Program-made: the position numbers and the translations under genes
The notes under the pieces: generated by a model
Databases searched by the model: none
Seen by the model: the letters and a program-made list of their open reading frames with translations, nothing else
Told to the model about the DNA's origin: nothing
IMG/VR virus record: IMGVR_UViG_3300025131_000489
Location: 1 to 21,955 of that record
Source: a virus
DNA: 21,955 nt
Direction: 5' to 3' (one strand)
Part shown: positions 435-21,955 of the stretch, in pieces
Layout: each line of letters opens with the position of its first letter
Numbering within the stretch: position 1 is the first letter of the stretch

Positions 435-451
435 ATCTCAATCTCCCGACT

Positions 452-1411: not shown

Positions 1412-1441
1412 CATGCCTCCCGGTCGTAACGCGACCAACCG

Positions 1442-3979: not shown

Positions 3980-5217
3980 CAGTTCACCTCCGCCAGTTGC
4001 GCCATCATGGTCTTGAGGTCTGCCTCGTCATTGATGTTGGCAACGCCAGCCTGCATCGACTGCTCTGCCTCAAGGCGGGCAGCCTTGGTCTGCTCTTCGC
4101 TCTCCCCGTAGGTCGCGATGTGGGCGAGCTCGGATGAAGCAGCATCAGCGTACTTGGACAGTTTCTGCCCTGAGTAGCCAGCCTGGGCGAGGGCTTTCTT
4201 GTACTCCGCCTGACCCTTGCGGCTGTTCATGTCGAAGACGAAGTCGGTGCCGTCGTCCACCACCAAGATCATCTTGTTGTGCTTGTAGTCCCGCACCGGG
4301 ACGAAGGGGGCGAGACCCTGTCCACGGTTGGCTGCGGCAGACCGACGTGCCCGGATGAGGACGTCGTGCATCTTCCGCATGTACACATCACCGTGGCTGG
4401 CAGCCTGCATGATGCGCTCTCGCCAGGAAGGACTGGCCTTGTGGGCAGCCGGCCCGGCAACGGCAGCCTTGCCTTTGCCGCCGGCTCCACCTTTCCGCCT
4501 GGACAAGAGGGTGCGCGAGGCAGATGCTGCTGCACCTGCGACTGTGGTAGGTGTGGGTTTCAGGTCGGCCATGGTTTGCTGCTGCGGCATTGGTGCCGGA
4601 ACAGACTGGTTTTCCATAGACTGAGGCCCAACAGTCCGGGCACCGTATCCCTCCACAGGCTTGCCTAGTGGTACTGGACGAGACATCATGGACGGTGCGG
4701 AGGCGGGTGCGGGTCCGGGGGCGGGCGACGGGGTTTGCCGGCGAGCCAGCCCAGCGGCGACTCTAGGGTCAAGTCCAGAACCGTACCCCTCCGGCGACGG
4801 CCCCTCCGGCGGAGAAAGGCTGGTATCATGCCAATCCGAACTGTCCATATACTCCGAGCCTTTGCCGGTGAAACCTACAGCAGGAAAGGAACTAACCCCC
4901 AGTGTCGTAACCTCCGGCCCCTCCGCCTGTCCCGTATACGTCACACCCCGAGGGTTGCCAAAATTACCAGGGACGACGCCCGCGCCCTGCGTGGAAACCC
5001 AAGGATTCCCCCGGTTCATGCGTCCAACGCTGCTCGGGCCGCCAGCCTGCACAACCCCACCCGTCCAGTAGCCGGGAGGTGGCTGCCCGCCGGCAGGAAC
5101 TTGAGAACCAGGCTGAACCCAAGACGGTTGCATCATTGCAAGCGATGCCCTTCGCGCCTCCGGGGTCATCGCATTCAGTTCCGCTTGAGTTGGATAACGG
5201 GGGGGTGGATTTGGCAC
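3979..5217 (-). CDS. Hypothetical proline/glycine-rich virion-type protein
   Basis: A 412-residue protein I do not recognise. The first ~220 residues are low complexity, rich in Pro, Gly, Ser, Gln and Ala, and probably disordered. The second half is more ordered: a basic Gly/Lys segment, a helical region (WRERIMQAASHGDVYMRKMH), a compact part with FVPVRDYKHNKMILVVDDGT, and a C-terminal helix rich in Ala, Glu and Gln. The start codon is GTG (5217-5215), with GGGG a few bases upstream and 2 bases separating it from the previous stop. An internal ATG at codon 17 has a weaker upstream site. Its position between terminase and portal fits a minor structural or internal protein, but no function can be assigned. 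Confidence 0.6.
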   Translation of the reverse strand: MPNPPPRYPTQAELNAMTPEARRASLAMMQPSWVQPGSQVPAGGQPPPGYWTGGVVQAGGPSSVGRMNRGNPWVSTQGAGVVPGNFGNPRGVTYTGQAEGPEVTTLGVSSFPAVGFTGKGSEYMDSSDWHDTSLSPPEGPSPEGYGSGLDPRVAAGLARRQTPSPAPGPAPASAPSMMSRPVPLGKPVEGYGARTVGPQSMENQSVPAPMPQQQTMADLKPTPTTVAGAAASASRTLLSRRKGGAGGKGKAAVAGPAAHKASPSWRERIMQAASHGDVYMRKMHDVLIRARRSAAANRGQGLAPFVPVRDYKHNKMILVVDDGTDFVFDMNSRKGQAEYKKALAQAGYSGQKLSKYADAASSELAHIATYGESEEQTKAARLEAEQSMQAGVANINDEADLKTMMAQLAEVN

Positions 5218-5219
5218 GG

Positions 5220-5504
5220 TTACCCCTGCTCAACGACGACTTCTGGGAAGTCATTCGGGTCCAAGTCCGGGTGCAAACCGTCCCCTTCCCAGGTCCGACA
5301 AGGTGTCGTGTCCTCAGCAGACATGTACTCGCCCACCGTCTTCGACAGAGCAACCTTGACCACCTGCTTCATGAGACCTGCCCTTTCTTCAATCCATTCG
5401 CGACGTTCCGCTTCAGCCTGGCGAGCCTGTGTCGAGAGAGCTCTCCGCCCGGCAGCGTACACAAGGAAAACGCAAATGCCAAGGGCAATGTGAAAAGGGT
5501 CCAT
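5220..5504 (-). CDS. Small membrane protein with one N-terminal transmembrane segment
   Basis: A 94-residue protein. Residues about 4-19 are hydrophobic (FHIALGICVFLVYAAG) and look like a single membrane anchor. An Arg/Glu/Ala-rich amphipathic helix follows (QARQAEAERREWIEERAGLM), then an acidic C-terminus. GGAG lies 7 bases before the ATG. Membrane anchor plus charged helix is the general shape of phage inner-membrane spanins and some holin-associated proteins. There is no adjacent endolysin or recognisable outer spanin, so I do not assign a lysis role. It lies between TerL and the virion-type genes. Confidence 0.6.
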   Translation of the reverse strand: MDPFHIALGICVFLVYAAGRRALSTQARQAEAERREWIEERAGLMKQVVKVALSKTVGEYMSAEDTTPCRTWEGDGLHPDLDPNDFPEVVVEQG

Positions 5505-5527
5505 GTTCTAACTCCAAAAGGGTGCCG

Positions 5528-7378
5528 TCAGAGTGAGGAAAAGAACCCAAGCTCGAGCAACTCTGACTCCACGTCCGAGTGCTCGTCGGAGTCTTCATCC
5601 ACCAATTCCGATACCGTGCTCCACTTGGGAGGGGCACCCTCCTCCCGTGGCTTCTCGTCGTTGTAGAGCAAGTCCAGATCGTAGTGCTCATCGTGCAGGG
5701 CGCATGCGATCATGAAGGAGAAGACGTAGTCGTCGTTCTCGCCTGGCTGCGCCTCGCACCGCATGCCATCCACCCAGACAAAGTTGGAGAGTTGCGTCAC
5801 CAGCTTGTCGTCGTGGATGATCACCGAGGTGGAGTCCGACCGCAGGGCTTTGCGGGCCGCCGAGACCAGCATCGGACGGGTCTTTGCGGTGGTCTCCCAG
5901 CCCAGCTTGTTCCTGATCAACTTGCCTTCAGCGCGGCTCCACTCCAGTTCCCGGTAGATGTTGGGGTAACTGAGTTTGCGGAGTTCCTTGAGCGTGGTCT
6001 TGCCGTAGGTGTTGGACTCCGGGCAGACGATGGCGTTGTTGTAGAAGCGACCCAGGATGTCCATCAGGACACCCACTTCATCTGGGTCTGGCTTGCCGAT
6101 GTAGGCAGCGCATTGCTCGATCGCCCTGCCGCGCCGCGCCCAAGCGGTGATGACGCTGAAGTCGTCGCCGGTCCCGCCGCCGCAGATGTCCGCAGTTATT
6201 ATATAGCGGGTGCCCTCTTCTGGATCGAGCCAACCCTCAAACTGCCCCACCTCGGTCTCGGTCTTGAAGATGGTCGGTCCTTTGTCGGACAGGTCGAACC
6301 TGGTCGATGGGAACAGGTGCTTGTTCTGGGCTGCGAGGAACTTGGCTGCGAAGACCTGGCGCCCGCTGGCGAGGAAGCAGGACACATCGTCGTCGGGGTA
6401 CTCTTGGAGCATGCGCTCTTCGTCACCGTCGCAGACGTTCCGGTAGCAGTAGCACCACCACAGCCATTGCCCGCAGGACAGGTCGTAGGTCTCGATCCGG
6501 TTGCTGCTGTCCTCAAGGAACCCGCCGGCTTCCCTGTCTGAAGCCCTGCCGTGCTTGCGCCACTTCCGCCAATGCCCCAGAACTGTCGGAGCCGGCTTGA
6601 TGGTGTTCTTGGGCACCGCATGCCAGGGCACAAACCAAGCCTTGAACTCGCTCTCCCCGTTCTTCGCACGCATGTACTCGTCGTAGAAGTACCCGCCTTT
6701 GCCGCAGGGGGAGGATTCAAGGATGATGATGCGCCAGGGTCCGAGGCGGGCACCCATGGCCGATTTAACAGCTGTCACCAGCTTCTTTGGGGCTGCGTAG
6801 AACGCCACCTCCGAGAAGTGGACGGCTTGCAGGGTCTTGGATCGCCCCTTCTTGGCGGCGACTGCCGAGGTGCCGGCGGTTGCGATGCGGACAAAGGACC
6901 CGTTCTTGTAGTGGACTCCGAGCTTCCGGGCCGAGCGGTCCACCTCCGGGCGCACGTCCGGGGACATCTTGGAGTACATGAAGGTGTACTTCTCAAGCAG
7001 GGTGTCGGTGGAGTCGTCATCGTGACTGATAACCATGGCCCGGTAGTTGTCCATGAAGATGGTCAACCAAGACAGGAGAGCGGCAACCCAGGTGGAGAAT
7101 CCGGCCTCCTGGCGCAGTTTGAGGATGACCATCAGCAGCGGTCTGCCTGCGAGGAGCTCGCGCAGGGCGTGCCTGGTGGCTCGGACTTGCGGCGGGTTGA
7201 GTACAAACGGGATGACGTTGGAGTCTGCATCGACGATCTTGACCTCCTGCTCGCAGAAGAAGACGAAGTCCTCTGCCAGTTGGAGGATGTACTGCTCGTC
7301 GAACTCGGTATCTGACAGGACTGACAGTTCGTCTGCCACAGCCTCTTCGACGATCTCTTCAAAGATGTCTTGCTTCAC
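5528..7378 (-). CDS. terL: Terminase large subunit (packaging ATPase/nuclease)
   Basis: A 616-residue packaging motor protein. The ATPase half shows the N-terminal Q-type motif (FVLNPPQVRA, about residues 58-67), a Walker A variant (LKLRQEAGFST, 86-96), a Walker B-like AVHFSE (185-190) and a coupling segment LESSP (about 220-224). An EYPDDDVSCFLASG motif (about 326-339) precedes the nuclease half. The RNase H-like nuclease shows ITADICGGGTGDDFS (Asp397), CPESNTYG (Glu454) and GENDDYVFSF (Asp549/550). I chose GTG 7378-7376: it overlaps the previous stop as GTGA, whereas the longer frame from ATG 7489 would read through 110 bp of the upstream gene. It cuts concatemeric DNA and drives it through the portal. 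Confidence 0.92.
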   Translation of the reverse strand: MKQDIFEEIVEEAVADELSVLSDTEFDEQYILQLAEDFVFFCEQEVKIVDADSNVIPFVLNPPQVRATRHALRELLAGRPLLMVILKLRQEAGFSTWVAALLSWLTIFMDNYRAMVISHDDDSTDTLLEKYTFMYSKMSPDVRPEVDRSARKLGVHYKNGSFVRIATAGTSAVAAKKGRSKTLQAVHFSEVAFYAAPKKLVTAVKSAMGARLGPWRIIILESSPCGKGGYFYDEYMRAKNGESEFKAWFVPWHAVPKNTIKPAPTVLGHWRKWRKHGRASDREAGGFLEDSSNRIETYDLSCGQWLWWCYCYRNVCDGDEERMLQEYPDDDVSCFLASGRQVFAAKFLAAQNKHLFPSTRFDLSDKGPTIFKTETEVGQFEGWLDPEEGTRYIITADICGGGTGDDFSVITAWARRGRAIEQCAAYIGKPDPDEVGVLMDILGRFYNNAIVCPESNTYGKTTLKELRKLSYPNIYRELEWSRAEGKLIRNKLGWETTAKTRPMLVSAARKALRSDSTSVIIHDDKLVTQLSNFVWVDGMRCEAQPGENDDYVFSFMIACALHDEHYDLDLLYNDEKPREEGAPPKWSTVSELVDEDSDEHSDVESELLELGFFSSL

Positions 7379-7629
7379 TCCGTGCCCCGTTTTCTGCGCC
7401 TCGCTGCCAGAGCAGCGACTCTCTGGTGTCTCTCGCCCTGGGAGATGGACGGTGCCGACATGGCGATCTTCATGCAGCGGTCGTACCACTCTTCTTCAGC
7501 CCTCGTTTTCTTGTCTTCGACTGCTGTTTCGAGCCTCTCCACAGCCATATTGGCGAGGCTGCGGACTGCATCGTTGGGGAATTGGAGACCGTCGAAAGCG
7601 GTCTTAATCTCGTCGAGCCGCTCTTTCAC
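7375..7629 (-). CDS. Small helical protein upstream of TerL (possible small terminase subunit)
   Basis: An 84-residue, highly charged, mostly helical protein (MKERLDEIKTAFDGL at the start, ARRRKRGTE at the end). It starts with GTG (7629-7627), with GGAG 8 bases upstream, and overlaps the preceding gene by 26 bp and TerL by 4 bp (GTGA). Small terminase subunits normally lie directly before terL, so position makes it a candidate. However, they usually carry an N-terminal helix-turn-helix and are longer than 84 residues; I see no clear helix-turn-helix here. It could equally be a short regulator or an unrelated small protein. Confidence 0.55.
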   Translation of the reverse strand: MKERLDEIKTAFDGLQFPNDAVRSLANMAVERLETAVEDKKTRAEEEWYDRCMKIAMSAPSISQGERHQRVAALAARRRKRGTE

Positions 7630-7996
7630 GCTTGCGCTCCATCCCGTTCCAGACCTTGATGGTTTTGATCAGCGACTGCCGTTCGCCTGGGCAGGGCTCT
7701 CCTTGCGGGACCCATGCCTCGTGGTCCGCACACTTGGCATACCACACCCCCTCGTGCTTCTCCCTGCGGGCGTCCCACAGGTGGAAGACCTTCTTCTCCT
7801 CCTGCGCCTCTTTGCGGCAGTCGGGGCAGTCTCGAGGGCAGTCTCGGTGCCGCCAGCAGCGGTCTGGGGTGTAGAGAACGCGCTGCGGGGTCGGTCGCTT
7901 GTGCTTGGGTCCGGGTCTCTTCTTCATCCTTCTTCCGGCGGGTCGGGCAGGGGCGTGGAAAGATTCGGCAGCGTTGGAAGGGTACTCAAGCCCCAT
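7604..7996 (-). CDS. Cysteine-rich probable zinc-binding protein, function unknown
   Basis: A 130-residue basic protein. A Lys/Arg/Pro-rich N-terminal segment is followed by a cysteine cluster (DRCWRHRDCPRDCPDC, about residues 46-61) and two further Cys with a His (YAKCADHEAW and GEPCPG), enough ligands for one or two structural zinc sites. The C-terminus is basic and helical. ATG 7996 is preceded by GAGG 5 bases upstream. A second in-frame ATG (7927, giving 107 residues) also has GGAAG upstream, so the start is not settled. It lies just before the small gene preceding TerL and may be a packaging accessory or nucleic-acid-binding protein. I see no HNH catalytic pattern. Confidence 0.6.
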   Translation of the reverse strand: MGLEYPSNAAESFHAPARPAGRRMKKRPGPKHKRPTPQRVLYTPDRCWRHRDCPRDCPDCRKEAQEEKKVFHLWDARREKHEGVWYAKCADHEAWVPQGEPCPGERQSLIKTIKVWNGMERKRERAARRD

Positions 7997-8034
7997 CTGA
8001 GCCTCTACAGTGCCGACGCACTACTTCAAGCAAA

Positions 8035-8397
8035 CTAGGGGAGGTCTTTGCACATGTCCCGCGTGAACCCGGCGGGCAGACAATCACAGCACCCCATGCT
8101 CTTGACCAGTTCAATCGCTGGCAGGCACGCCTCGCCCTCGGTCACCACACAAGCGGTGGCAGCGGCAGCGGTCGCTGCGCTGCAATAGGCTGTCTGCCAC
8201 CAAGCGCAGCCCATGAGCAACGACCCCGGTGCAGTGAGCTTTGCCTTGCAGGCTGGCTCTTTCTTGCACTCGCCAAGGTGCATGACGATCTTGTCAAAGC
8301 GGGTCGCCTCGGCTGCGGGCGCTGCGGGTGCTTTCTGTTCGCTGCACGAAGTCAGCATGAGGCTCAAGCCAACCATCAGAATCATGAACGCTCTCAT
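8035..8397 (-). CDS. Cysteine-rich lipoprotein
   Basis: A 120-residue predicted lipoprotein. The start ATG 8397 has AAGGAG placed 6 bases upstream; a longer in-frame ATG (8451) lacks this. The signal peptide MRAFMILMVGLSLMLTSC has a positive n-region, a hydrophobic core and the lipobox LTSC, so Cys18 should be lipidated after signal peptidase II cleavage. A short Ala/Pro linker follows, then a mature part with ten further cysteines in a compact ~75-residue region (including CKKEPAC, CAWWQTAYC and GCCDC), suggesting a disulfide-stabilised exported domain. Candidate roles by family knowledge are superinfection exclusion at the cell surface or an outer spanin, though spanins are not normally this cysteine-rich. 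Function is unproven. Confidence 0.7.
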   Translation of the reverse strand: MRAFMILMVGLSLMLTSCSEQKAPAAPAAEATRFDKIVMHLGECKKEPACKAKLTAPGSLLMGCAWWQTAYCSAATAAAATACVVTEGEACLPAIELVKSMGCCDCLPAGFTRDMCKDLP

Positions 8398-8453
8398 CAG
8401 TCTCTCCTTGGACATCGGTTCTAAACCCCTTGACGGGCTCCTTTCTAACATGC

Positions 8454-8927
8454 TTACGACACGCTCAACGTGCCTGTTCCGCTAATGTCGGCCATGTCGG
8501 CACCCTCAGTGACACCGACAAAGGTTCCATACAACTTCCCGTGCGTACTGAACAGCGAAAAGGTCGCCATACCCTCGACAACGTCCACCGCAACGCAGGT
8601 GAAGTGACACTTGCCCGCAACGGTTTTTGGGTTCACTAAGAATGTCCCTGCCACTGGCGCTGTGAACGCACCGAAATCCCAACTGAATCCCGATGCGTTG
8701 AAGCTGACAGCGCACTCATACGTCCCGGCCACCGCCAGCGTGCAGTCCAGCACATAGTATAGTGCCCCCGCACAACTTAACAGCCCAGCACCCACGCCGA
8801 ACCCGTCACCGAGGGCAAGCAGGTGTTGATTAGCCTTAGCGACATCAGAGCCAGCAGGTGTTGCCTTTATCCGTTCGATCTGTTTAGCCAACGCTTGCTC
8901 TGCCATCTTGACAAGCATGTCAGACAT
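8454..8927 (-). CDS. Hypothetical beta-rich protein with helical N-terminus
   Basis: A 157-residue protein. Residues 1-30 are helical and charged (MAEQALAKQIERIKA). The rest alternates short hydrophobic and Gly/Thr stretches expected of beta strands (CTLAVAGTYECAVSFNASGF, then FGAFTAPVAGTFLVNP) and ends in TGTLSVS. The FTAPVAGTF segment weakly recalls the C1q/TNF-like jelly roll seen in some phage fibre heads, but the rest of that signature is missing. A good ribosome site (AGAGG) lies 3 bases before the ATG, and the gene overlaps the upstream stop by 8 bp. A small virion decoration or receptor-binding protein is conceivable; I assign no function. Confidence 0.6.
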   Translation of the reverse strand: MSDMLVKMAEQALAKQIERIKATPAGSDVAKANQHLLALGDGFGVGAGLLSCAGALYYVLDCTLAVAGTYECAVSFNASGFSWDFGAFTAPVAGTFLVNPKTVAGKCHFTCVAVDVVEGMATFSLFSTHGKLYGTFVGVTEGADMADISGTGTLSVS

Positions 8928-9375
8928 CTACCTCTGCCTCCCGGTTGCTGCAACTGCGGTTCCGACAGCGCGGACTCCCTTCAGAATCTAACCTGCTCCG
9001 CCCCCGCTCTGCGGCATCCCTCTGCCGGATGTATTCGTCGTGCAGGTGCTGCCGGTCGGAAGGGGTGGAGATGTGAACAACAGACACACCGGCCTCCCGG
9101 TGGGTGGGGTGGGGGCAAACGCCGCCCTCAGGTATCCGAACTCCGCAATCGCAGTCCGAACAGGTCTCTCCGCAGTCCCCGCAACCCGACCTCCCCGCCA
9201 ACTCCTCGACCCTCTCCCGAGCCCTCTTCTCCCAAAACTCGCTGCTCCGGGCAGCCGCCTGTAACATCTGAAGATGCGACCCGGACACCAGGTACATGTC
9301 GTACCCAGACACCCTCCGACAACCCTCACTCACTAGAAGAGGCGCAACCTCTATCAACCCTGCTCGCTCGGACAT
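8920..9375 (-). CDS. Hypothetical protein with central cysteine cluster, first gene of the leftward operon
   Basis: A 151-residue protein. ATG 9375 is preceded by a strong ribosome site (AGGAGG, 5 bases upstream); the frame extends further upstream but without such a site. A helical N-terminal part is followed by a dense cysteine cluster (GCGDCGETCSDCDCG, about residues 85-99), then CPHP with nearby His, and a basic C-terminus with two more Cys. The cluster suggests zinc binding, although the close packing of Cys is also compatible with a metal cluster or metallothionein-like site. It is the promoter-proximal gene of the minus-strand unit. I do not recognise a family. Confidence 0.6.
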   Translation of the reverse strand: MSERAGLIEVAPLLVSEGCRRVSGYDMYLVSGSHLQMLQAAARSSEFWEKRARERVEELAGRSGCGDCGETCSDCDCGVRIPEGGVCPHPTHREAGVSVVHISTPSDRQHLHDEYIRQRDAAERGRSRLDSEGSPRCRNRSCSNREAEVDV

Positions 9376-9538
9376 GTGTTCCTCCTGCAAGAGCCTTCCG
9401 CCCAGCAGAATACACACACAACCAACACCTGACAACAAGATTAGGAAAGCAAGAGAGCGAGACTTCCCTTAGAGGGACTGCGTCCCTTCCAGTGTATCGA
9501 CTGCTCGCATAACTTGCTCCGCTCCTGCCTTGCAGTCG

Positions 9539-9568
9539 ATTCTTAGTAAGAGACCGAGGTTTTGTCAA
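9539..9568 (-). promoter_or_regulatory. Candidate leftward promoter for the packaging/capsid operon
   Basis: On the minus strand a perfect -35 TTGACA (9568-9563) is followed after 18 bases by AAGAAT (9544-9539), matching four of six -10 positions. Transcription would begin near 9531, leaving a ~155-base leader before the first gene at 9375. That leader contains a 6-bp stem with a 3-base loop (AGGGAC/GTCCCT, 9473-9487). The call rests on sequence match and position in the divergent region only. Confidence 0.45.
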
Positions 9569-10061
9569 GATGTTTCTGCCGCCAGTTGATTGGGGTCTGT
9601 GGACATCACCGTTTTTTGGGATATATCGGGTATGGGGGTGTCCCCCCCGAGCACTAGCCCCTCGAGGCCAGGTACCCCCTTACCCACGGGCAGGCACCCA
9701 TGTGGGCGATCTAGCGTCAAAGGAACGAAAAGCCCCCTATATTCAAAGAGTTAGCTATCTTTGTTGTGCTGCGTCTTTATGGTGTTCCCTACCCTGAGGG
9801 TCCAGATTGACGGTGATCGGCTGTGCTCGCAAGCAGTGGCTTGCAAATGGCATAGGACACAACTTGTCATAGGCGGTGATGGGAGGCTAGCTCGAGTTGA
9901 CGCACGTCACCGCCCCCAATCTAGGTCTAGCCTTCCCATATCAACGCCCGATCTTGGTGCCTTGTCGATCTTCCCTGTCCACCGATGATCACTGCCGATG
10001 GTTGGCGGGGATCGGGCGACCCTCATCTAGGATCAAGCTGGATAGGGGGCAGAAGAGTTAG

Positions 10062-10091
10062 TTGACAGTAGGTGCGAACCATGCCCTTAAT
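10062..10091 (+). promoter_or_regulatory. Candidate rightward promoter for the early arm
   Basis: A perfect -35 TTGACA (10062-10067) is followed after 18 bases by CTTAAT (10086-10091), four of six matches to the -10 consensus. Transcription would begin near 10098, which excludes the upstream GTG/ATG codons of the 10072 frame and supports translation from ATG 10147. The first stem-loop leader (10119-10133) would then lie about 20 bases from the transcript 5' end. Confidence 0.4.
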
Positions 10092-10118
10092 ACTCCTACG
10101 GCAATTAAGCCGACTTAA

Positions 10119-10133
10119 GCGGTCCCGAACCGC
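10119..10133 (+). promoter_or_regulatory. Stem-loop leader element 1
   Basis: GCGGT-CCCGA-ACCGC forms a perfect 5-bp stem with a 5-base loop, followed by AAGCGAGGAAGAC-ATG. The same design (short GC stem, purine-rich ribosome site, start codon) recurs before several genes of this arm. It is probably an mRNA leader structure; its function is unknown. Confidence 0.5.
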
Positions 10134-10146
10134 AAGCGAGGAAGAC

Positions 10147-10419
10147 ATGGCACAGCGCATCAACAAAGCAACCGATCCAACCACTTCTTTTCGGACTGGT
10201 CCCGTTATTGCTGAGGGCCGGATCTCCGTTGTTGCTCTACCGGGGGACCCTTCCTTGTTCTCAAGCGAGCAAATCTACCTCCAGCGGACCCTTTACGCTG
10301 ACAACGGCTCGCATATGGCGACCACCATTCACTTGGCATCAAGGGCAGAATTGGACACACTAATTAGCAATCTCCAAGCGTGCCGACGTTGGATCTCCAA
10401 GCGCAGTACAGAAAGCTAG
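10147..10419 (+). CDS. Small protein, paralogue of the 12784 gene product
   Basis: A 90-residue protein I cannot assign to a named family. ATG 10147 has GAGGA 4 bases upstream; an in-frame GTG at 10072 lies before the likely transcription start and is disfavoured. Residues 41-90 (EQIYLQRTLY through HLASRAEL and LQACRRW to STES) align with residues 39-90 of the 118-residue product at 12784 (EQVYLAREIN, HLRDRHEL, LQACQRW, STER), with a gap of two residues. The alignment extends weakly to the N-terminus (RISVVA against RVTVSAV). This copy lacks the partner's C-terminal zinc-ribbon extension. It is the first gene of the rightward arm, so it may act early in infection. Confidence 0.75.
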   Translation: MAQRINKATDPTTSFRTGPVIAEGRISVVALPGDPSLFSSEQIYLQRTLYADNGSHMATTIHLASRAELDTLISNLQACRRWISKRSTES

Positions 10420-10438
10420 GCTCTGCCGTTGCCCATTG

Positions 10439-10484
10439 CCCCGGACTACCACGGTCCGGGGTATAGGGCAGGGGCAGACCCTGC
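10439..10484 (+). other. Two GC-rich stem-loops after the first early gene
   Basis: CCCCGGAC and GTCCGGGG (10439-10446, 10454-10461) form a perfect 8-bp stem with a 7-base loop. GCAGGG and CCCTGC (10468-10473, 10479-10484) form a 6-bp stem with a 5-base loop. Neither is followed by a T-run, so a classic intrinsic terminator is not supported. mRNA processing, 3' end protection or attenuation remain possible. Confidence 0.5.
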
Positions 10485-10493
10485 GACACCTAA

Positions 10494-10508
10494 GCGGCCC
10501 TGAGTCGC
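10494..10508 (+). promoter_or_regulatory. Stem-loop leader element 2
   Basis: GCGGC-CCTGA-GTCGC forms a 5-bp stem with one G-T pair and a 5-base loop, followed by ATACGAGGATACA-ATG. It is the counterpart of the element before 10147 and precedes the 10522 gene. Confidence 0.45.
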
Positions 10509-10521
10509 ATACGAGGATACA

Positions 10522-11418
10522 ATGAGAGAATCGACACTAATATGGACTGGCAATAGCGAATTGAACGGCCAGCCGATCGCTGTTTTCGCCCGCGTTGGCG
10601 CTAATCGCAAGGTAAAAGGCAAGGTGAAGGCGCGGCAAGTGCTCGCCTTGTCCGTTGTGCCGATGGTCACGATTGCCAAGGTCCGGGCAGCCGACCACGG
10701 TCAGTCTGCCATCAAGCTTGGTACCACCTATCGCCACAGCTTGATCAATGGCGCGATTGACTCGGTCTGCGACAATGCCTGCGAGCACAAGGGCAATGCT
10801 AAGTGTTACGCCCAATACAACGCTCAGAGCGTCTCGGAACCAATCACCACGATCCGCAAGGCTGGGCCAGCGATCAAGGCGCGACCCAATGCGTTGCGAA
10901 ACCATCTACGTGCCCATCGATTCCAGTCGGGCGACAAGTATCGGCTGATGGTTGTCGGCAGTACCGGCGCGATCCCCGCTGCTGTTGTTGATAACATGTT
11001 GTCCACGTTCGCCGACTTTGGCATGCAGTCGCTGGCCTATGTCGAGAATTGGCGAGACCGCCCGGATTTGTGCGAAACCCATATGGCTTCTTGCTACACC
11101 CTAGAAGACCTTGCCGAAGCTAAGGCGGCGGGTTGGAGAGGCTTCTACTCTCCCGCCGCCGAGACCCTTGGAAACACGTTGCCCGAGGGTGCTACCCTCT
11201 GCCCCGGCAGTGTCTACCGCAAATATGCTGGGCTTAAAATTATGTCGTGCGCCGACTGCGGTCTTTGCGACGGCGCCGGCAAGGGCTTGTCGATCGTCTC
11301 GCCACGGCACGGCAACGGCGACGCGGGACGCGTCCAGTCGCTTGTCCGCAAAGGCGTGCTCGGGCGCCTTATCTACACTGCCAAGGGGAAGGTGATCGGA
11401 GCCTACGCCGCAGCATAG
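10522..11418 (+). CDS. Phage protein with CxxxC...CY and CxxCxxC motifs, function unknown
   Basis: A 298-residue protein. It opens with an NS-containing segment (WTGNSELNG). A first cysteine group CDNACEHKGNAKCY (Cys83, 87, 95) is followed by HRFQSGDKYRLMVVGSTG, YVENWRD, an Ala-rich helix ending in AGWRGFYS, LCPGS (Cys227), CADCGLC (Cys243, 246, 249), and IVSPRHG near the end. This succession matches a widespread but uncharacterised phage family that I recall from other phage genomes, with GKCY, sGDf and CxxCxxC hallmarks. The cysteine pattern would suit an iron-sulfur cluster or zinc. I do not see the CxxxCxxC loop of radical-SAM enzymes in its standard place, so no activity is assigned. GAGGA precedes the ATG. 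Confidence 0.75.
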   Translation: MRESTLIWTGNSELNGQPIAVFARVGANRKVKGKVKARQVLALSVVPMVTIAKVRAADHGQSAIKLGTTYRHSLINGAIDSVCDNACEHKGNAKCYAQYNAQSVSEPITTIRKAGPAIKARPNALRNHLRAHRFQSGDKYRLMVVGSTGAIPAAVVDNMLSTFADFGMQSLAYVENWRDRPDLCETHMASCYTLEDLAEAKAAGWRGFYSPAAETLGNTLPEGATLCPGSVYRKYAGLKIMSCADCGLCDGAGKGLSIVSPRHGNGDAGRVQSLVRKGVLGRLIYTAKGKVIGAYAAA

Positions 11419-11433
11419 CAGCGACTTCCCGGT

Positions 11434-11464
11434 ATGCTGGCGACCCGCCGATGGTCGCCAGCAT
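11434..11464 (+). other. Perfect 12-bp stem-loop after the 10522 gene
   Basis: ATGCTGGCGACC (11434-11445) and GGTCGCCAGCAT (11453-11464) pair perfectly around a 7-base loop, 16 bases after the stop codon. No T-tract follows (CACGGGG), so it is not a textbook Rho-independent terminator on this strand. It is the most stable hairpin I found in the window and may be a transcription pause, processing or mRNA-protecting site. Confidence 0.65.
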
Positions 11465-11508
11465 CACGGGGCGCCCCTGCCCTGCCCTGATAGACGGAGA
11501 CCAAAACC

Positions 11509-12096
11509 ATGAGAATCCTAGTAGCCTGCGAAGAAAGCCAAGCGGTCGCGGTCGCGTTCCGAAACCTCGGGCACGAGGCGTACTCCTGCGATATTCAACC
11601 ATGCAGCGGTGACCATCCCGGCTGGCACATTCAAGGCGACGTATTGGCGGAGTTGAGCAAGGGCTGGGATATGATCGTCGCGTTCCCGCCTTGCACGCAT
11701 CTTGCCAGTTCCGGCGCACGCTGGTTCGCCGCCAAGCGGGCCGACGGTCGGCAGCAAGCGGCGTTGGCATTCGTCGCCGCTATCGCCGCCGCAGACTGTC
11801 CGCGCATCGCGATCGAGAACCCGATCGGGGTCCTGTCGTCGCAGTGGCGCAAGCCAGACCAGATTGTGCAGCCTTGGCAATTCGGGCACACCGAAAGCAA
11901 AGCCACTTGCCTGTGGCTCAAGGGGTTGGCTCCGCTGGAGCACACCGACAACGTACACGCGGCAATGATGCTGCTGCCGCTGGCTGAACGCACCCGCGTT
12001 CATTATATGTCGCCCGGTCCTGACCGAGCGAAGCTTCGCAGCAAAACCTACAGTGGCATCGCCGCCGCAATGGCCGCCCAATGGGGCAAGGATTGA
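11509..12096 (+). CDS. C5 cytosine methyltransferase-like phage protein
   Basis: A 195-residue protein of the short phage DNA-methyltransferase-like type. It begins MRILVACEESQAVAVAFRNL (the SAM-binding motif I equivalent), then YSCDIQP, GDVLAELSKGWDMIVA and FPPCTHLASSGARW. FPPC carries the Pro-Cys of motif IV, Cys being the usual methyl-transfer nucleophile. IENPIGVLSS is the motif VI ENP counterpart. It is much shorter than full C5 methyltransferases (300-400 residues) and lacks a visible target-recognition domain and a QRRxR motif VIII. Activity is therefore uncertain; it may methylate, or be a derived family with another role. GGAG precedes the ATG by about 10 bases. Confidence 0.75.
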   Translation: MRILVACEESQAVAVAFRNLGHEAYSCDIQPCSGDHPGWHIQGDVLAELSKGWDMIVAFPPCTHLASSGARWFAAKRADGRQQAALAFVAAIAAADCPRIAIENPIGVLSSQWRKPDQIVQPWQFGHTESKATCLWLKGLAPLEHTDNVHAAMMLLPLAERTRVHYMSPGPDRAKLRSKTYSGIAAAMAAQWGKD

Positions 12097-12100
12097 GACC

Positions 12101-12280
12101 ATGATGAGCACCCGAACCTACATGATCACCTTGACGCTCGCCGCCCTGCTGTTCTTCGTCATCCTGTGGCAGCGCCCAGAAGTGGCACCTGCCCCGGCAC
12201 CCAATGCCGTTGTGTGGGTTGGCGAGTGGTGCAGCCCCATAGACATTGCCCTCAATTTCAACAACTGCGGCGACGACTGA
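12101..12280 (+). CDS. Small single-pass membrane protein
   Basis: A 59-residue protein with one clear transmembrane segment near the N-terminus (YMITLTLAALLFFVILW, about residues 7-23), then a Pro/Ala linker (PEVAPAPAPN) and a short polar tail with two Cys (EWCSPIDIALNFNNCGDD). It would sit in the inner membrane with the tail most likely outside. The start ATG 12101 is followed by a second ATG; AAGGA lies 8 bases upstream and spans the end of the preceding gene. It is 4 bases from the methyltransferase-like gene, so probably co-expressed. Function unknown. Confidence 0.6.
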   Translation: MMSTRTYMITLTLAALLFFVILWQRPEVAPAPAPNAVVWVGEWCSPIDIALNFNNCGDD

Positions 12281-12293
12281 ACCACCACCAATA

Positions 12294-12308
12294 GCGGGAC
12301 CCACCCGC
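12294..12308 (+). promoter_or_regulatory. Stem-loop leader element 3
   Basis: GCGGG-ACCCA-CCCGC forms a perfect 5-bp stem with a 5-base loop. AAGGA (12309-12313) and TTAGACC-ATG follow. The ribosome site starts immediately at the foot of the stem, so the hairpin could modulate initiation. It is the best-formed member of the family. Confidence 0.6.
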
Positions 12309-12320
12309 AAGGATTAGACC

Positions 12321-12536
12321 ATGCCGACCATCCTGTCCTTCTACGAGCACAACCACAACCACGTTTTGTCTTTTGTTCTACTCTGCGACGACTGCGCAAT
12401 TGCTGTAGCATCGCCCTCGCTTGAGATGTTCCCACCTCGCGACGACCCGCAGACTTGCTGCGGCGAATGCGGCGAAGAGGGCGACATTGCCCCCCGCGAC
12501 TCAACCCTCATCGAGCGCACCCTTGACCCCCGATAG
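12321..12536 (+). CDS. Small protein with two CxxC-type pairs (probable zinc binding)
   Basis: A 71-residue protein. It carries a His/Asn cluster near the start (HNHNH), a first pair CDDC (Cys22, 25), and a second group CCGEC after a Pro-rich turn. Four or five cysteines plus His would be enough for one zinc site. It is preceded by stem-loop element 3 and AAGGA 7 bases from the ATG. Its stop codon TAG ends on the first base of the next stem-loop. I do not recognise the family. Small zinc-binding proteins in early phage regions often bind host factors, but nothing here shows that directly. Confidence 0.6.
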   Translation: MPTILSFYEHNHNHVLSFVLLCDDCAIAVASPSLEMFPPRDDPQTCCGECGEEGDIAPRDSTLIERTLDPR

Positions 12537-12553
12537 CGGGACGACCCACCCGC
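12536..12553 (+). promoter_or_regulatory. Stem-loop leader element 4
   Basis: GCGGG and CCCGC (12536-12540 and 12549-12553) pair around an 8-base loop, followed directly by AAGGAG and the ATG at 12567. Stem and flanks are nearly identical to element 3 (both read ATAGCGGGAC and CCCACCCGCAAGGA). Confidence 0.6.
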
Positions 12554-12566
12554 AAGGAGCTATGAC

Positions 12567-12721
12567 ATGCTGACCTCAGAACAAGCCATCCGGCAGGCAA
12601 TCCGACTCGCTGACCGTCCGGCCAGGCAGACTGCGGCGAGACCGTCTGCACCTGCGACCGTCCCAAGGACAACGGACCCCGCTTGACGCAGGGCTTGACA
12701 GACCTTGTCGGGCTCAACTAG
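12567..12721 (+). pseudogene. Small cysteine-containing gene broken by an apparent frameshift
   Basis: From ATG 12567 (AAGGAG 7 bases upstream) the frame gives MLTSEQAIRQAIRLADR and then loses coding character, stopping at 12686. The frame one base back, open after TGA 12611-12613, reads DCGETVCTCDRPKDNGPRL and ends at TAG 12719-12721. It has a strong third-position G/C preference there, while the original frame does not. Joining the two near 12612-12620 gives a ~51-residue protein with a C-x4-C-x-C group, like its CxxC-bearing neighbours. I see no classic slippery heptamer at the junction, so a real mutation or a sequencing indel is likelier than programmed frameshifting. If translated as is, the product is a 39-residue peptide. 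Confidence 0.55.
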
Positions 12722-12724
12722 CAT
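12695..12724 (+). promoter_or_regulatory. Candidate promoter upstream of the 12784 gene
   Basis: TTGACA (12695-12700) is a perfect -35 and TAGCAT (12719-12724), 18 bases later, matches four of six -10 positions. A transcript would begin near 12731, placing two stem-loops (12734-12770) at its 5' end. It lies within the tail of the frameshifted gene. Confidence 0.4.
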
Positions 12725-12733
12725 TCCATCACA

Positions 12734-12770
12734 GCCGCAACCCAGCGGCATCACAGCAGGCGAGACCTGC
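12734..12770 (+). promoter_or_regulatory. Double stem-loop leader element 5
   Basis: GCCGC-AACCCA-GCGGC (12734-12749) and GCAGG-CGAGA-CCTGC (12756-12770) are two adjacent 5-bp stems. AAGGA (12771-12775) and CAGGAACC-ATG follow. The second stem has different bases from element 3 but the same geometry and flanking AAGGA, which argues that the structure itself is conserved. Confidence 0.55.
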
Positions 12771-12783
12771 AAGGACAGGAACC

Positions 12784-13140
12784 ATGAGCAAGCGCAACAC
12801 CCATCCCAACCCGTCTAAGTATTTCAACACGGGCAACACGTTCGCCAGCCGCGTTACCGTTTCGGCAGTCAAGTGCGCCGACGCAAACGACATCGAGGAG
12901 CAGGTATACCTCGCACGCGAGATCAACACCTGTCAGGGTGCTGGCCCCTCGGTCTCGGTGAGCCTGCACCTGCGCGACCGTCACGAGTTGGCAGACCTCA
13001 TCAAGGACTTGCAGGCGTGCCAGCGGTGGCTGATTGCCAACAGCACCGAGCGCACCTGCCGCTACTGCGGCGGCAACGGGAACTGGGGCAGCAAGTGCAA
13101 CAACTGCGGCGCCGGCAAGCGCAAAGCCGGGGAGGGCTAG
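12784..13140 (+). CDS. Paralogue of the 10147 protein with an added C-terminal zinc ribbon
   Basis: A 118-residue protein. Residues 1-90 match the 10147 product (EQVYLAREIN at 39-48, LHLRDRHEL at 61-69, DLQACQRW at 75-82, STER at 87-90). Residues 92-111 add CRYCGGNGNWGSKCNNCGAG, a CxxC-x9-CxxC zinc ribbon (Cys92, 95, 105, 108), followed by a basic tail. The ribbon suggests a nucleic-acid or protein contact that the shorter paralogue lacks. AAGGA lies 8 bases before the ATG, behind stem-loop element 5 and a promoter candidate. The core family is unknown to me. Confidence 0.75.
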   Translation: MSKRNTHPNPSKYFNTGNTFASRVTVSAVKCADANDIEEQVYLAREINTCQGAGPSVSVSLHLRDRHELADLIKDLQACQRWLIANSTERTCRYCGGNGNWGSKCNNCGAGKRKAGEG

Positions 13141-13202
13141 ACCGCACCGCTTGACCCCCTCTGTTGCGCGTCAGTCCGCTGTCGCGCAGCGCAGGGTGCC
13201 AA

Positions 13203-13232
13203 GCACCCCCACCGGGCACAACGCCCAACACC
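13203..13232 (+). repeat. Imperfect 30-bp intergenic repeat, copy 1
   Basis: Matches 13921-13950 at 25 of 30 positions without gaps. It has a shared core CGGGCA then ACGCCCAACAC that can form a small GGGC/GCCC hairpin. It lies upstream of the 13267 gene. An additional stem GGGTGC-CAA-GCACCC (13194-13208) overlaps its left end. Confidence 0.7.
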
Positions 13233-13266
13233 GGGACACAGGAAAACACACCGCAAGGAGACCGAC

Positions 13267-13482
13267 ATGACGACCAACACACCAACCGCAGAATACGCAA
13301 GCGTGCTGATCTGCGTTTACTGCCGCCACTGCGGCGCGTTCTTGCACGATCCGGCCACCGGATCGACAAACATCAGCGCGGACAGTGTGCGCGACGCGGG
13401 TTGGAAGGCGGGCGCCGTTGTCGTCTGCGACCAGTGCGCGGGCCGCTTTCGGTTGCCGGCAGCGGTTGACCGCCTCGTTTAG
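13267..13482 (+). CDS. Small zinc-ribbon protein
   Basis: A 71-residue protein with CVYCRHCGAF (about residues 16-25) and VVCDQCAGRF (about residues 52-61). That is two close cysteine pairs about 30 residues apart, the typical layout of a zinc ribbon, with hydrophobic residues after each pair. GCAAGGAG lies 6 bases before the ATG, the same ribosome-site sequence found after the stem-loop leaders elsewhere in the array, though here the stem is imperfect. Function unknown; a DNA- or RNA-polymerase-binding role is possible but is not shown. Confidence 0.65.
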   Translation: MTTNTPTAEYASVLICVYCRHCGAFLHDPATGSTNISADSVRDAGWKAGAVVVCDQCAGRFRLPAAVDRLV

Positions 13483-13510
13483 ACCACCACACACACCACG
13501 GGGTCAAGAC

Positions 13511-13909
13511 ATGAAAACCATCACTATCAAGATCAACATCGACAGCATCAACGGCGATCTCGGCTACATCGAGTTTTTGCGCGAGCGGCACCCAGACGCT
13601 GACATTGAGTGCGGGAACATGGAGTCCGTATGGTCGGTCTGCGGCGACGGAGAGAATGACGATTGCTTGGAAGAAGCCGGGCTTGAGGAGGGCGAGCGCG
13701 AGCACGACGACGGTTGCTGCTTTGGATGGCGCACTTCGGCCCCTGAGAATCGCGCCTGCCATGCCTGCGACGCATACGTGCCCCCCCACAGCAAGGAGGA
13801 GAGTTTGCCACCTTGTGATATGTCCTGCGCCGAGTGCATCTGCGGCGACGGAGAGAATGACGAGGGCGCGGCTGCGGATTCTTGGCGCACCTATTGCGAG
13901 ATCATCTGA
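13511..13909 (+). CDS. Acidic cysteine-rich protein with an internal duplication
   Basis: A 132-residue, strongly acidic protein. A short beta-like start (MKTITIKINIDS) is followed by CGDGENDDC and an acidic helix, CCFGWRTS, CHACDAYVPP, CDMSCAEC, and a second CGDGENDEG followed by SWRTYC. The two CGDGEND segments come from an exact 25-bp in-frame direct repeat 201 bp apart. About eleven cysteines indicate metal binding or disulfides; the acidity could mean DNA mimicry, a known anti-restriction strategy, but that is only a suggestion. ATG 13511 has a weak ribosome site (GGGG, 6 bases upstream). The frame extends upstream to 13385 but would overlap the previous gene. Confidence 0.65.
   Translation: MKTITIKINIDSINGDLGYIEFLRERHPDADIECGNMESVWSVCGDGENDDCLEEAGLEEGEREHDDGCCFGWRTSAPENRACHACDAYVPPHSKEESLPPCDMSCAECICGDGENDEGAAADSWRTYCEII
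13638..13662 (+). repeat. 25-bp exact direct repeat, copy 1 (in gene)
   Basis: Identical to 13839-13863, in the same reading frame (offset 201 bp = 67 codons), encoding CGDGEND. The copies diverge at once on both sides, so it looks like a recent short duplication or recombination tract. Confidence 0.85.
13839..13863 (+). repeat. 25-bp exact direct repeat, copy 2 (in gene)
   Basis: Second copy of the repeat at 13638-13662, inside the 13511 gene and in frame. Recombination between copies would remove 67 codons without shifting the frame. Confidence 0.85.
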
Positions 13910-13920
13910 CACTACACCGC

Positions 13921-13950
13921 GCACCCCTAACGGGCAGCACGCCCAACACA
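13921..13950 (+). repeat. Imperfect 30-bp intergenic repeat, copy 2
   Basis: Matches 13203-13232 at 25 of 30 positions. It lies directly before the stem-loop at 13951 and the 13978 gene, so both copies occupy the leader of a small gene. Confidence 0.7.
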
Positions 13951-13964
13951 GCGGCAGTAGCCGC
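13951..13964 (+). promoter_or_regulatory. Stem-loop leader element 6
   Basis: GCGGC-AGTA-GCCGC forms a perfect 5-bp stem with a 4-base loop. GGGAGA (13967-13972) and the ATG at 13978 follow. Again the stem stands immediately upstream of the ribosome site. Confidence 0.55.
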
Positions 13965-13977
13965 ATGGGAGAATAGA

Positions 13978-14109
13978 ATGGAGACCATCATCGAGCTCGG
14001 ACTCACAGACCAAGAGATGGCAGGCACCCTGCGGGTGCTGCTGCTGGAAGGCATCAAAGTTGAGCGCGTCTGGTTCGACGGCAAGTGGCTTGCCAGAGTG
14101 GAGGCTTAA
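13978..14109 (+). CDS. Very small protein, function unknown
   Basis: A 43-residue protein (METIIELGLTDQEMAGTLRV at the start, WFDGKWLARVEA at the end). GGGAGA lies 5 bases before the ATG, and a stem-loop leader stands upstream. The predicted layout is helix then a short beta hairpin around FDGKWL. An upstream in-frame ATG at 13882 would overlap the previous gene and the 30-bp repeat, so the short form is preferred. No family recognised. Confidence 0.55.
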   Translation: METIIELGLTDQEMAGTLRVLLLEGIKVERVWFDGKWLARVEA

Positions 14110-14111
14110 CC

Positions 14112-14417
14112 ATGAACACGCGCCCCTTCACCCTGCTGGACGTTAGCCTGGCCCTGGGTACACGTTGTGGCATCGTCCTGATGCTGCGCGGCGTGCCCGT
14201 CGCCAACATCATCTACACCCCGCACGGGATCGTCTACGCCGCAGCCCGCAATCACGAGGCGTGGCGCCAACTCCCCACCATCCGCCGGCTCGCCGCCGAG
14301 GCTACCGGGCAGGGCGACGACGACGGGCTGGACTGGCTTGTGCAGGCTGCCCGCATCGGTGACACGCTCGACTATGCCATGATGATCATTGACTGCATGT
14401 TCACAGAGGAGAACTAG
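14112..14417 (+). CDS. Hypothetical small protein
   Basis: A 101-residue protein with no motif I recognise. It has hydrophobic beta-like stretches (CGIVLMLRGVPVANIIYTPH), then a helical half with an acidic linker (GQGDDDGLDW). It starts two bases after the preceding stop; GGAG lies 9 bases before ATG 14112. It is followed after 3 bases by the next start (TAG-ACC-ATG), so the three genes 13978-14651 are probably translated from one mRNA. Confidence 0.6.
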   Translation: MNTRPFTLLDVSLALGTRCGIVLMLRGVPVANIIYTPHGIVYAAARNHEAWRQLPTIRRLAAEATGQGDDDGLDWLVQAARIGDTLDYAMMIIDCMFTEEN

Positions 14418-14420
14418 ACC

Positions 14421-14651
14421 ATGACCACCGCAACCAAACTCACAGGACACGCTGAATCCCTGCGCGACATGTTGGCAGACCTGCTGCTGCGCGAGCCCCG
14501 CAGGTGGGACCGCTACAATCGCATTGTGTTTCGCGATGGTCTCGACAAACGACTGCTCCGCCCCGCCTTTGGTGCCGGTCCTGGCTACTGGATGATCACC
14601 GACAAAGGTGTTGACACCCTGCACAGCCTCAACAACTTGGAGCAACCGTAG
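14421..14651 (+). CDS. Small winged-helix-like protein
   Basis: A 76-residue protein. The C-terminal half reads GYWMITDKGVDTLHSLNN. An aromatic beta strand followed by ITDKG and a helix is the usual wing-and-last-helix signature of small winged-helix DNA-binding proteins. The N-terminal half is helical (ESLRDMLADLLLREPRRWDR), agreeing with that fold. GAGGAG lies upstream across the preceding stop codon. It could regulate transcription from the nearby promoter at 14637-14666, but this is inferred only from fold and proximity. Confidence 0.6.
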   Translation: MTTATKLTGHAESLRDMLADLLLREPRRWDRYNRIVFRDGLDKRLLRPAFGAGPGYWMITDKGVDTLHSLNNLEQP

Positions 14652-14666
14652 ACCCCGTGCTATAAT
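14637..14666 (+). promoter_or_regulatory. Candidate promoter with perfect TATAAT inside a palindrome
   Basis: TATAAT (14661-14666) is a perfect -10 in GC-rich surroundings, flanked by GTGC and GCAC, which makes a palindrome. The -35 is weak (TTGGAG, 14637-14642, spacing 18). A transcript would start near 14673, a few bases before stem-loop element 7, so that hairpin would cap the mRNA 5' end. Confidence 0.5.
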
Positions 14667-14677
14667 GCACACCAACA

Positions 14678-14712
14678 GCGGGACAACCCGCAAGCGCAGC
14701 CGCTGAAGCGGC
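14678..14712 (+). promoter_or_regulatory. Double stem-loop leader element 7
   Basis: GCGGG-ACAA-CCCGC (14678-14691) and GCCGC-TGAA-GCGGC (14699-14712) are two perfect 5-bp stems with 4-base loops. ACGAGG and the ATG at 14728 follow. The first stem is identical to elements 3 and 4. Confidence 0.6.
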
Positions 14713-14727
14713 ACGAGGCGACGACAG

Positions 14728-15312
14728 ATGCTCTGCCCCTGTGGACAACAAGCCGACTGGAAGGTGGACCTTGGCATGCTCGTGCCAGACCGAGGGGTGG
14801 TAGCCGCTCATCACAGCATGGTCCGCTACTTCTGCAAGCCCTGCGGCATGGGAACGTGGCGCCCCGTGCTGGCGCACATGCGCCGGATGGAGTTGCCCGT
14901 CACCCGCATCGCATCCAACACCACCGTCCCGTGGCTTGAGATCGGGCGGTCCCCCTACCGGCACGTTCCCCTGTACAAGCACATCTGGCAGGTGCTCTGC
15001 ACCGATGGCAGGGAGATTGAAGTTCGGGCTCCGCAGTCAAACGGGCTGGGGCTATGGCCGCGCAGTTGCCGGCGATACAACCTCACCCACCTGCGGAGCG
15101 GCAAATCGGTGCAGTCCAGCATCAAGGCGAAGTGGCGGGCCGAGCGGTTGCTCCGCTGGTTGGTAGCCTTGGGCATCGACTGGGAGCAGACCGAGCGGCA
15201 GGTGTGGGAGCAGTTGCAAGCCAACCCGCAAGCACGCCTCGCCATGCGCCTCGCCCTGCTCTCCACCATGCACGAGAGCTACAACAAACAACCGAGGAAG
15301 ACCGATGACTGA
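14728..15312 (+). CDS. Hypothetical protein with N-terminal zinc-finger-like cysteines
   Basis: A 194-residue basic protein. The N-terminus has CPC (Cys3, 5) and, about 30 residues later, a CKPC pair, a likely zinc site. A beta-rich middle part follows (YKHIWQVLCTDGREIEVRAP), then a helical C-terminal third containing WRAERLLRWLVALGIDWEQ. It is the first gene behind the promoter at 14637-14666 and starts a run of overlapping genes; the next start lies 8 bp inside its end. No family recognised. Cysteines plus high positive charge suggest nucleic-acid contact, as inference only. Confidence 0.6.
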   Translation: MLCPCGQQADWKVDLGMLVPDRGVVAAHHSMVRYFCKPCGMGTWRPVLAHMRRMELPVTRIASNTTVPWLEIGRSPYRHVPLYKHIWQVLCTDGREIEVRAPQSNGLGLWPRSCRRYNLTHLRSGKSVQSSIKAKWRAERLLRWLVALGIDWEQTERQVWEQLQANPQARLAMRLALLSTMHESYNKQPRKTDD

Positions 15313-21134: not shown

Positions 21135-21955
21135 AGTGGGCAAGCTGTTGCAGCGGCATAGGAGCGCCAGAGGTGGCATGGTCCGGTCTGGGCTGGGATC
21201 ACCGATGGTGCAGCGAGATCGACAAGTTTCCAAGCGCCGTGCTGGCGCACCACTGGCCCAACGTGCCCAACTTGGGCGACATGACAAAGGCGGTAGACCA
21301 TGAGCGATTCGAGACAATTAACCTTCTTGTCGGAGGTACGCCCTGCCAGTCGTTCAGTATCGCAGGCAAACGCCTCGGACTGGACGATCCCAGAGGAGGA
21401 CTGGCCCTCGCGTATCTCAAGCTGGCTCGCGACTGTGGCGCCCGTTGGATCGTCTGGGAAAACGTGCCCGGCGTCCTGTCGTCTGACGGAGGGCGGGATT
21501 TTGGAGCCTTCCTCGGAGCGTTGGGCGAGCTCGGGTATGGGTGGGCGTACAGAATCCTGGACGCTCAATACTTCGGAGTGGCCCAGCGCCGCCGCCGTGT
21601 CTTCGTTGTCGGACATCTTGGAGACTGGAGACGTGCCGCAGCGGTACTTTTTGAGCCCGCGAGCCTGCGCGGGGATTTTGCGCCGCGCAGAGGCTCGCGG
21701 GAAGGTGTTACCGTTGGCGCTGGATCGGGCGCTCACCCAGGCGGTTTCAACGGACAAGACGCCTACAACGGACAGTTGATCGCTGCGAGAGAGAGTGGCC
21801 CAGGCTGGTGGATGGAGGACGACAAGGCCGGCCCGCTTCGCGCAGAGGGAGAGAACAGACCAAGCCGACCATCTCACATCATCGCCCATACCCTCGGCAC
21901 GCAATGTGGAGGGGCAACAGAGGACGGCACCGGGCGCGGCGCACCGCTGGTGCCG
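21131..21955 (+). CDS. C5 cytosine DNA methyltransferase (Dcm-like), C-terminus cut by window edge
   Basis: An open frame of 275 codons from ATG 21131 to the window end. The canonical C5 motifs are present: motif I SCCSGIGAPEVAW (5-17), motif IV GGTPCQSFSIAG (68-79) with catalytic Cys72, motif VI WENVPGVLSS, and motif VIII QYFGVAQRRRRVFVVGH. After that comes a Gly/Asp-rich region, probably the target-recognition domain, then ATEDGTGRGAPLVP, typical before the last motifs of phage enzymes. Motifs IX-X lie outside. Unlike the short homologue at 11509, this looks fully active. The start overlaps the resolvase stop (ATGA). It probably protects phage DNA from restriction; the target site cannot be read from the sequence. 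Confidence 0.9.
   Translation, partial: MKWASCCSGIGAPEVAWSGLGWDHRWCSEIDKFPSAVLAHHWPNVPNLGDMTKAVDHERFETINLLVGGTPCQSFSIAGKRLGLDDPRGGLALAYLKLARDCGARWIVWENVPGVLSSDGGRDFGAFLGALGELGYGWAYRILDAQYFGVAQRRRRVFVVGHLGDWRRAAAVLFEPASLRGDFAPRRGSREGVTVGAGSGAHPGGFNGQDAYNGQLIAARESGPGWWMEDDKAGPLRAEGENRPSRPSHIIAHTLGTQCGGATEDGTGRGAPLVP

Follow-up and report, generated by a model that had tools for sequence, protein, structure and literature searches.

Results

Hairpin leaders of the early genes

The stretch of viral DNA analyzed here (the window) is the IMG/VR virus record IMGVR_UViG_3300025131_000489, which comprises 21,955 bases with 61% G+C. Portal and terminase genes are among those on the minus strand at 1 to 9.4 kb, and a series of small plus-strand genes runs rightward from 10.1 kb and is followed by a DNA exonuclease-like gene. 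Seven of these small early genes are led by a short GC hairpin that lies close upstream of the Shine–Dalgarno (SD) site and recurs in nine copies. All nine fit the consensus A-GC-NNN-loop-NNN-GC-A, in which the loop has 4 to 8 nt and ends in A. A second record, IMGVR_UViG_3300025141_000485 (G001, 30,798 bases), overlaps positions 1 to 11512 of the window with 12 differences and positions 21829 to 21955 exactly; the two records represent one genome, the map of which closes at ∼41 kb. Among the 12 differences over these 11,512 nt are the adjacent pairs 1184–1185, 9913–9914, and 9918–9919.

All copies lie on the plus strand. E1 (10119–10133, GCGGT-cccga-ACCGC), E2 (10494–10508, GCGGC-cctga-GTCGC, with one G-U pair), E3 (12294–12308, GCGGG-accca-CCCGC), E4 (12536–12553, GCGGG-acgaccca-CCCGC), E5b (12756–12770, GCAGG-cgaga-CCTGC), and E6 (13951–13964, GCGGC-agta-GCCGC) precede the ATG codons at 10147, 10522, 12321, 12567, 12784, and 13978, and the distances from the 3′ end of the stem to the ATG are 13, 13, 12, 13, 13, and 13 nt, respectively. 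Two genes carry tandem hairpins. At the gene starting at 12784, E5a (12734–12749, GCCGC-aaccca-GCGGC; AGCCGCaacccaGCGGCA), which was recovered by a motif scan, sits 6 nt upstream of E5b, and at the gene starting at 14728, the promoter-proximal E7a (14678–14691, GCGGG-acaa-CCCGC) is followed by E7b (14699–14712, GCCGC-tgaa-GCGGC), which ends 15 nt before the ATG. The stem of E4 starts at the final base of the stop codon of the preceding ORF (12534–12536), and E3 and E6 begin 14 and 42 nt past the preceding stop codon, respectively. The 3′ half of the element, CCGCAAGGAG, also occurs at 13251–13260 on the plus strand, before the ATG at 13267 and without a 5′ arm; it is either a degenerate copy or an independent sequence.

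A preliminary description of this DNA had listed seven stem-loops, at 10119, 10494, 12294, 12536, 12756, 13951, and 14678, and each of them is present. As described there, elements 3, 4, and 7 share the stem GCGGG/CCCGC, and the retention of pairing despite different bases, which was claimed for elements 2 and 5, holds for elements 1, 2, 5, and 6. The ribosome site directly follows the stem in elements 1 to 6, as proposed, but not in element 7, where the hairpin at 14699–14712 intervenes; this second hairpin, and not that at 14678–14691, is the in-register copy. The additional hairpin upstream of element 5 (12734–12749) had not been listed. The same description reported a TAG-ACC pattern at stop/start junctions. 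Real stop codons followed by ACC are found at 13138, 13480, 14415, and 14649, but the TAG at 12315 is not a stop codon. Of the 116 plus-strand occurrences of TAG, 10 are followed by ACC, and the pattern is an incidental, weak feature outside the element.

Register and repetition

With gene starts assigned by hand, a 5-bp hairpin with a loop of 4 to 8 nt ended 12 to 13 nt upstream of 6 of the 24 plus-strand starts. In 400 sets of dinucleotide shuffles, such starts numbered 0.19 on average and 2 at most, and even a free choice of the best 2-nt distance window in every shuffle yielded no more than 3. The consensus, applied as a rule to both strands of the window and to the remainder of G001, returned the nine copies at 10.1 to 14.7 kb, each in the coding orientation; because the rule was derived from eight copies, the count of nine is partly circular, although the ninth, E5a, was not used in defining it. 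Apart from these copies, the rule matched three sites in the window and no site in the remainder of G001, and the plus strands of shuffled windows gave a mean of 0.35 matches and a maximum of 2. Between 10.1 and 14.8 kb, the element is present at 7 of the 10 plus-strand genes with an upstream gap of at least 28 nt and at none of the three ungapped genes.

Leaders of this kind could be chance hairpins of GC-rich DNA that were chosen by eye, as about 1% of positions mark the end of a 5-bp hairpin and the isolated folds of the copies lie mostly inside the shuffled range (z = −0.7 to −2.8). However, the register and motif tests beat all shuffles, and the motif scan added a copy beside E5b that had played no part in defining the motif, making chance a highly improbable explanation. 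The evidence for the element is its register, repetition, and covariation, not the stability of the isolated fold.

At the minus-strand start at 1414, a 5-bp hairpin with a different consensus, GGTCG-cgtta-CGACC, abuts an SD of GGGAGG.

Covariation of the stem

The copies were aligned with loops trimmed to 4 nt, after MAFFT on the raw elements had shifted the stems by 3 nt. Pairs 1 and 2, the outer ones, are invariant (G-C and C-G), whereas pair 3 is G-C, C-G, or A-U, pair 5 is C-G, G-C, or U-A, and pair 4 includes one G-U. The covariation score was 0.564, compared with 0.162 when the partners were shuffled and no more than 0.129 when they were slid. The covariation is genuine, and the modular leader that the preliminary description envisaged, a hairpin plus SD at fixed spacing, is common to genes that are unrelated save for one paralog pair. 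Because the inner pairs vary on both sides yet stay paired, the pattern of substitutions argues that the element acts as RNA.

A role in DNA was also considered, in which a dimeric DNA-binding protein would use the repeat as its operator or the repeat would provide short homology for gene-cassette exchange. The element sits in the gaps between small early genes, a location that it shares with repeats in cluster EG phages of Microbacterium and cluster K phages of Mycobacterium, and a DNA role has been proposed for the ESAS repeats of cluster K and is suggested by the fixed palindromes of cluster EG. However, a spacer varying from 4 to 8 nt disrupts helical phase, and the arm letters vary while their symmetry is kept. 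A DNA dyad would require A and T flanks, whereas every copy has A on both sides. The copies also share one orientation and a fixed distance to the ATG. Since the loop length varies, both flanks are A, and the orientation is single, RNA is preferred over a DNA operator. Cassette exchange by homology, which the preliminary description had suggested, is disfavored by conserved runs of 3 nt, the variable loop, and the changing inner bases. Taken as a whole, an action in DNA seems very unlikely.

Proposed insulation of the SD site

The explanation that we favor, to which we give about an even chance, is that the element is a cis-acting hairpin of the mRNA leader that insulates the SD site and has been reused by one phage. 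The 3′ arm ends where the SD stretch starts, 12 to 13 nt before the ATG. In a transcript with 61% G+C and tightly packed small genes, the hairpin would lock the bases adjacent to the SD into a local fold. This fold would prevent base pairing between the SD and RNA farther upstream, and each small gene would thereby gain its own open and independent ribosome entry site. In 45 to 120 nt of native context, the stem forms with a probability (P) of 0.68 to 1.0 in six of the seven gene-proximal copies (0.98–1.0 for E1). When the 5′ arm was barred from pairing with its bases unchanged, the cost of opening the SD was usually higher, by up to 2.4 kcal/mol. Under the rules published for ribosome standby sites (PMC3936740), a 5-bp hairpin is expected to carry little penalty if about 10 nt upstream are single-stranded.

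Several observations weigh against SD insulation. The gain in SD accessibility is modest and near zero for E6. E2 hardly folds (P = 0.03–0.06), and barring its arm helps in two of three contexts. In addition, the copies were picked for pairing, so the pair counts are partly circular; the register test is independent of this choice, and the informative part of the covariation is the two-sided changes among copies with common flanks and register. The comparison is confined to one species, as no relative beyond it covers the region. Finally, the invariant outer pairs, the flanking A residues, and the final loop A exceed what a plain insulator needs.

Directly upstream of E2, at ∼10440–10490, there are two further hairpins, CCCCGGAC...GTCCGGGG and GCAGGG...CCCTGC, which may compete with E2.

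Constant features and a possible binding protein

Both flanking A residues, the outer G-C and C-G pairs, and the final loop A are constant in nine of the nine copies. Such constancy beyond pairing would suit recognition by an RNA-binding protein of the phage or its host, and in that case the seven early genes would be switched together as a post-transcriptional regulon, much as translational repressors of T4 act at single mRNAs. The fixed place beside the SD suits a repressor, and the occurrence of two hairpins in a row at two genes would fit cooperative binding. Conversely, the loop length and most loop bases vary, which is atypical of hairpins bound by proteins. The analysis identified neither a candidate protein nor a matching Rfam family. 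Weighing these points, we consider a protein-binding site fairly unlikely, and the more specific proposal that the A-GC...A...GC-A hairpin is the recognition element through which one factor controls translation of the whole early gene set is, in our judgment, unlikely. CsrA, suggested by a CARGGA beside a hairpin, was rejected as the factor, as the GGA lies outside the loop and acts as the SD.

Promoter-like sites and the 5′ end of the message

Three promoter-like sites, and no others, reached the chosen score on the plus strand between 9.9 and 15.0 kb, each as a consensus match only. The first, TTGACA-18-CTTAAT (10062–10091), has a predicted start ∼21 nt before E1; the second, TTGACA-18-TAGCAT (12695–12724), ∼3 nt before E5a; and the third, an extended −10 element TGCTATAAT (14658–14666), ∼5 nt before E7a. 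It is in the two tandem leaders that the first hairpin lies almost at the predicted 5′ end. No promoter-like site was found near E2, E3, E4, or E6 (four of the seven leaders) in the same region and strand.

With such an arrangement, the hairpins could keep RNases from entering at 5′ ends, whether these arise where transcription starts or by processing between cistrons. Because the predicted starts lie 3 to 5 nt ahead, protection of the 5′ end, which the preliminary description had listed among its suggestions, would suit E5a and E7a, and it is compatible with the start before E1. However, the promoters were called by consensus, four leaders have none nearby, and the constant 12 to 13 nt to the ATG is unneeded for stability, so protection as the general function seems quite unlikely. 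Under SD insulation, the promoter-proximal tandem copies may additionally shield the 5′ end of the message. The hairpins do not resemble intrinsic terminators, as they precede a purine-rich SD and not a T run, and they were absent from the terminator scan.

Genes led by the element and the phage host

Among the products of the led genes, the only related pair is encoded by 10147–10419 (plus strand, 90 aa, led by E1) and 12784–13140 (plus strand, 118 aa, led by E5a/E5b), which share 36% identity (E = 6e-14). The latter gene has no relatives in the phage collection. Its product is the longer of the two, with an extra C-terminal zinc ribbon–like CxxC part, and neither paralog belongs to a known family. 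The gene led by E2 (10522–11418, plus strand) encodes a 298-aa protein of phrog_2554, a family of unknown function. Mycobacteriophages and Roseobacter phage CRP-811 encode proteins that are 27 to 30% identical to it, and weaker matches occur in Gordonia and Bradyrhizobium phages. In the gap past the 298-aa gene (∼11433–11466), there is a long hairpin with perfect arms, ATGCTGGCGACC...GGTCGCCAGCAT, without a T run.

The portal and capsid proteins are 22 to 27% identical to those of actinophages, namely the Arthrobacter Brad/Adat group, Microbacterium Shocker, and Cellulosimicrobium DS1. As these structural proteins resemble actinophage proteins, the host is probably an actinobacterium. Judging by the IMG sample numbers of the same-species contigs, the phage is presumably marine.

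Occurrence in other phages

Five protein or profile scans of IMG/VR returned same-species contigs or nothing. A covariance model built from eight copies gave no additional convincing match, either in this genome or in six phages taken as relatives or for comparison, and the structural relatives of the phage lack the element, which the preliminary description had suggested may travel with small gene cassettes. Likewise, no peak of hairpins at 12 to 13 nt was seen at 745 SD-bearing starts of phage contigs selected by pattern or at 173 starts of related phages. In Rfam, the search gave one chance snoRNA match below the gathering score.

Among phage leaders with CCCGCAAGGAG before an ORF, a hairpin with a matching 5′ arm was present in 3 of 99, which is the background level. 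The exact pattern AGCGGGAC..CCCGCAAGGA had 16 matches, mostly within reading frames or a tRNA, and one was a leader. This leader, found in L012 and L016 (1836–1856), which represent a different phage, carries AGCGGGACGACCCCGCAAGGAGAAAGGATG, is nearly identical to E4, and precedes a gene between portal-like and capsid-like ORFs. In a looser scan that preselected both arms and left the fifth pair unspecified, this pair was Watson–Crick in 50 of the 86 matches leading an ORF of at least 40 aa, compared with 29 expected. An exact pattern had 62 scattered matches in 84,980 species genomes. Single leaders of such design occur now and then elsewhere, and their repeated use is a trait of the present phage, since the 3′ half alone brings a hairpin in just 3 of 99 leaders.

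Discussion

The nearest known kind of element is the start-associated repeat of actinophages, and the present element is best seen as a variant of such leader repeats. In Cluster K mycobacteriophages, start-associated sequences (SAS) are repeats just upstream of the starts of unrelated non-structural genes with intergenic gaps, and they include the SD; inverted repeats (ESAS) lie upstream of about half of them (PMC3203893). The ESAS are 17-bp imperfect inverted repeats whose changes give little support for an RNA hairpin, and the authors favor DNA-binding sites (PMC3203893). The present element occupies the same place, at the starts of non-structural genes with intergenic gaps. However, the 13-bp core of the SAS (GGGATAGGAGCCC or GGGAAAGGACCCC) is absent, and the leaders here hold AAGGA, GAGGA, or GGGAG instead. 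In place of the 17-bp repeats of the ESAS, the present copies have 5-bp covarying arms and fixed spacing to the ATG. Microbacterium cluster EF also has start-associated sequences.

In Microbacterium Cluster EG, represented by Hyperion, several copies of an inverted repeat occupy the short gaps before small genes at one genome end, 14 to 22 nt ahead of the starts (PMC7302621). In Hyperion, we found this repeat to be a near-invariant 18-bp palindrome, TGATCAACCYGGGTTGATCA, with a 2-nt centre, located 16 to 22 nt before starts. As a whole, it cannot form a normal RNA loop and looks like a DNA site. The repeated copies before small genes are alike in the two cases, but the hairpins described here are not palindromes of the EG type. 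Cluster O mycobacteriophages have 17-bp dyad repeats with invariant arms that are unlinked to translation starts (PMC4351075); the likeness lies in a short repeated dyad in an actinophage genome, and the link to starts sets the present element apart. Standby-site hairpins resemble it in lying upstream of the SD, separate from it, and in being accommodated by the ribosome, whereas those studied were single or synthetic leaders and not a repeated covarying family in one genome (PMC3936740). Compared with the SAS/ESAS and cluster EG repeats, the present element differs by its RNA covariation.

Start-associated repeats of actinophages have been known since 2011; no function has been assigned to them, and it is undecided at which level, RNA or DNA, they work. 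A start-linked repeat with RNA covariation and a fixed register points to the mRNA. If the hairpin does boost or gate initiation, it would also provide a leader part that is compact and modular for use in GC-rich hosts.

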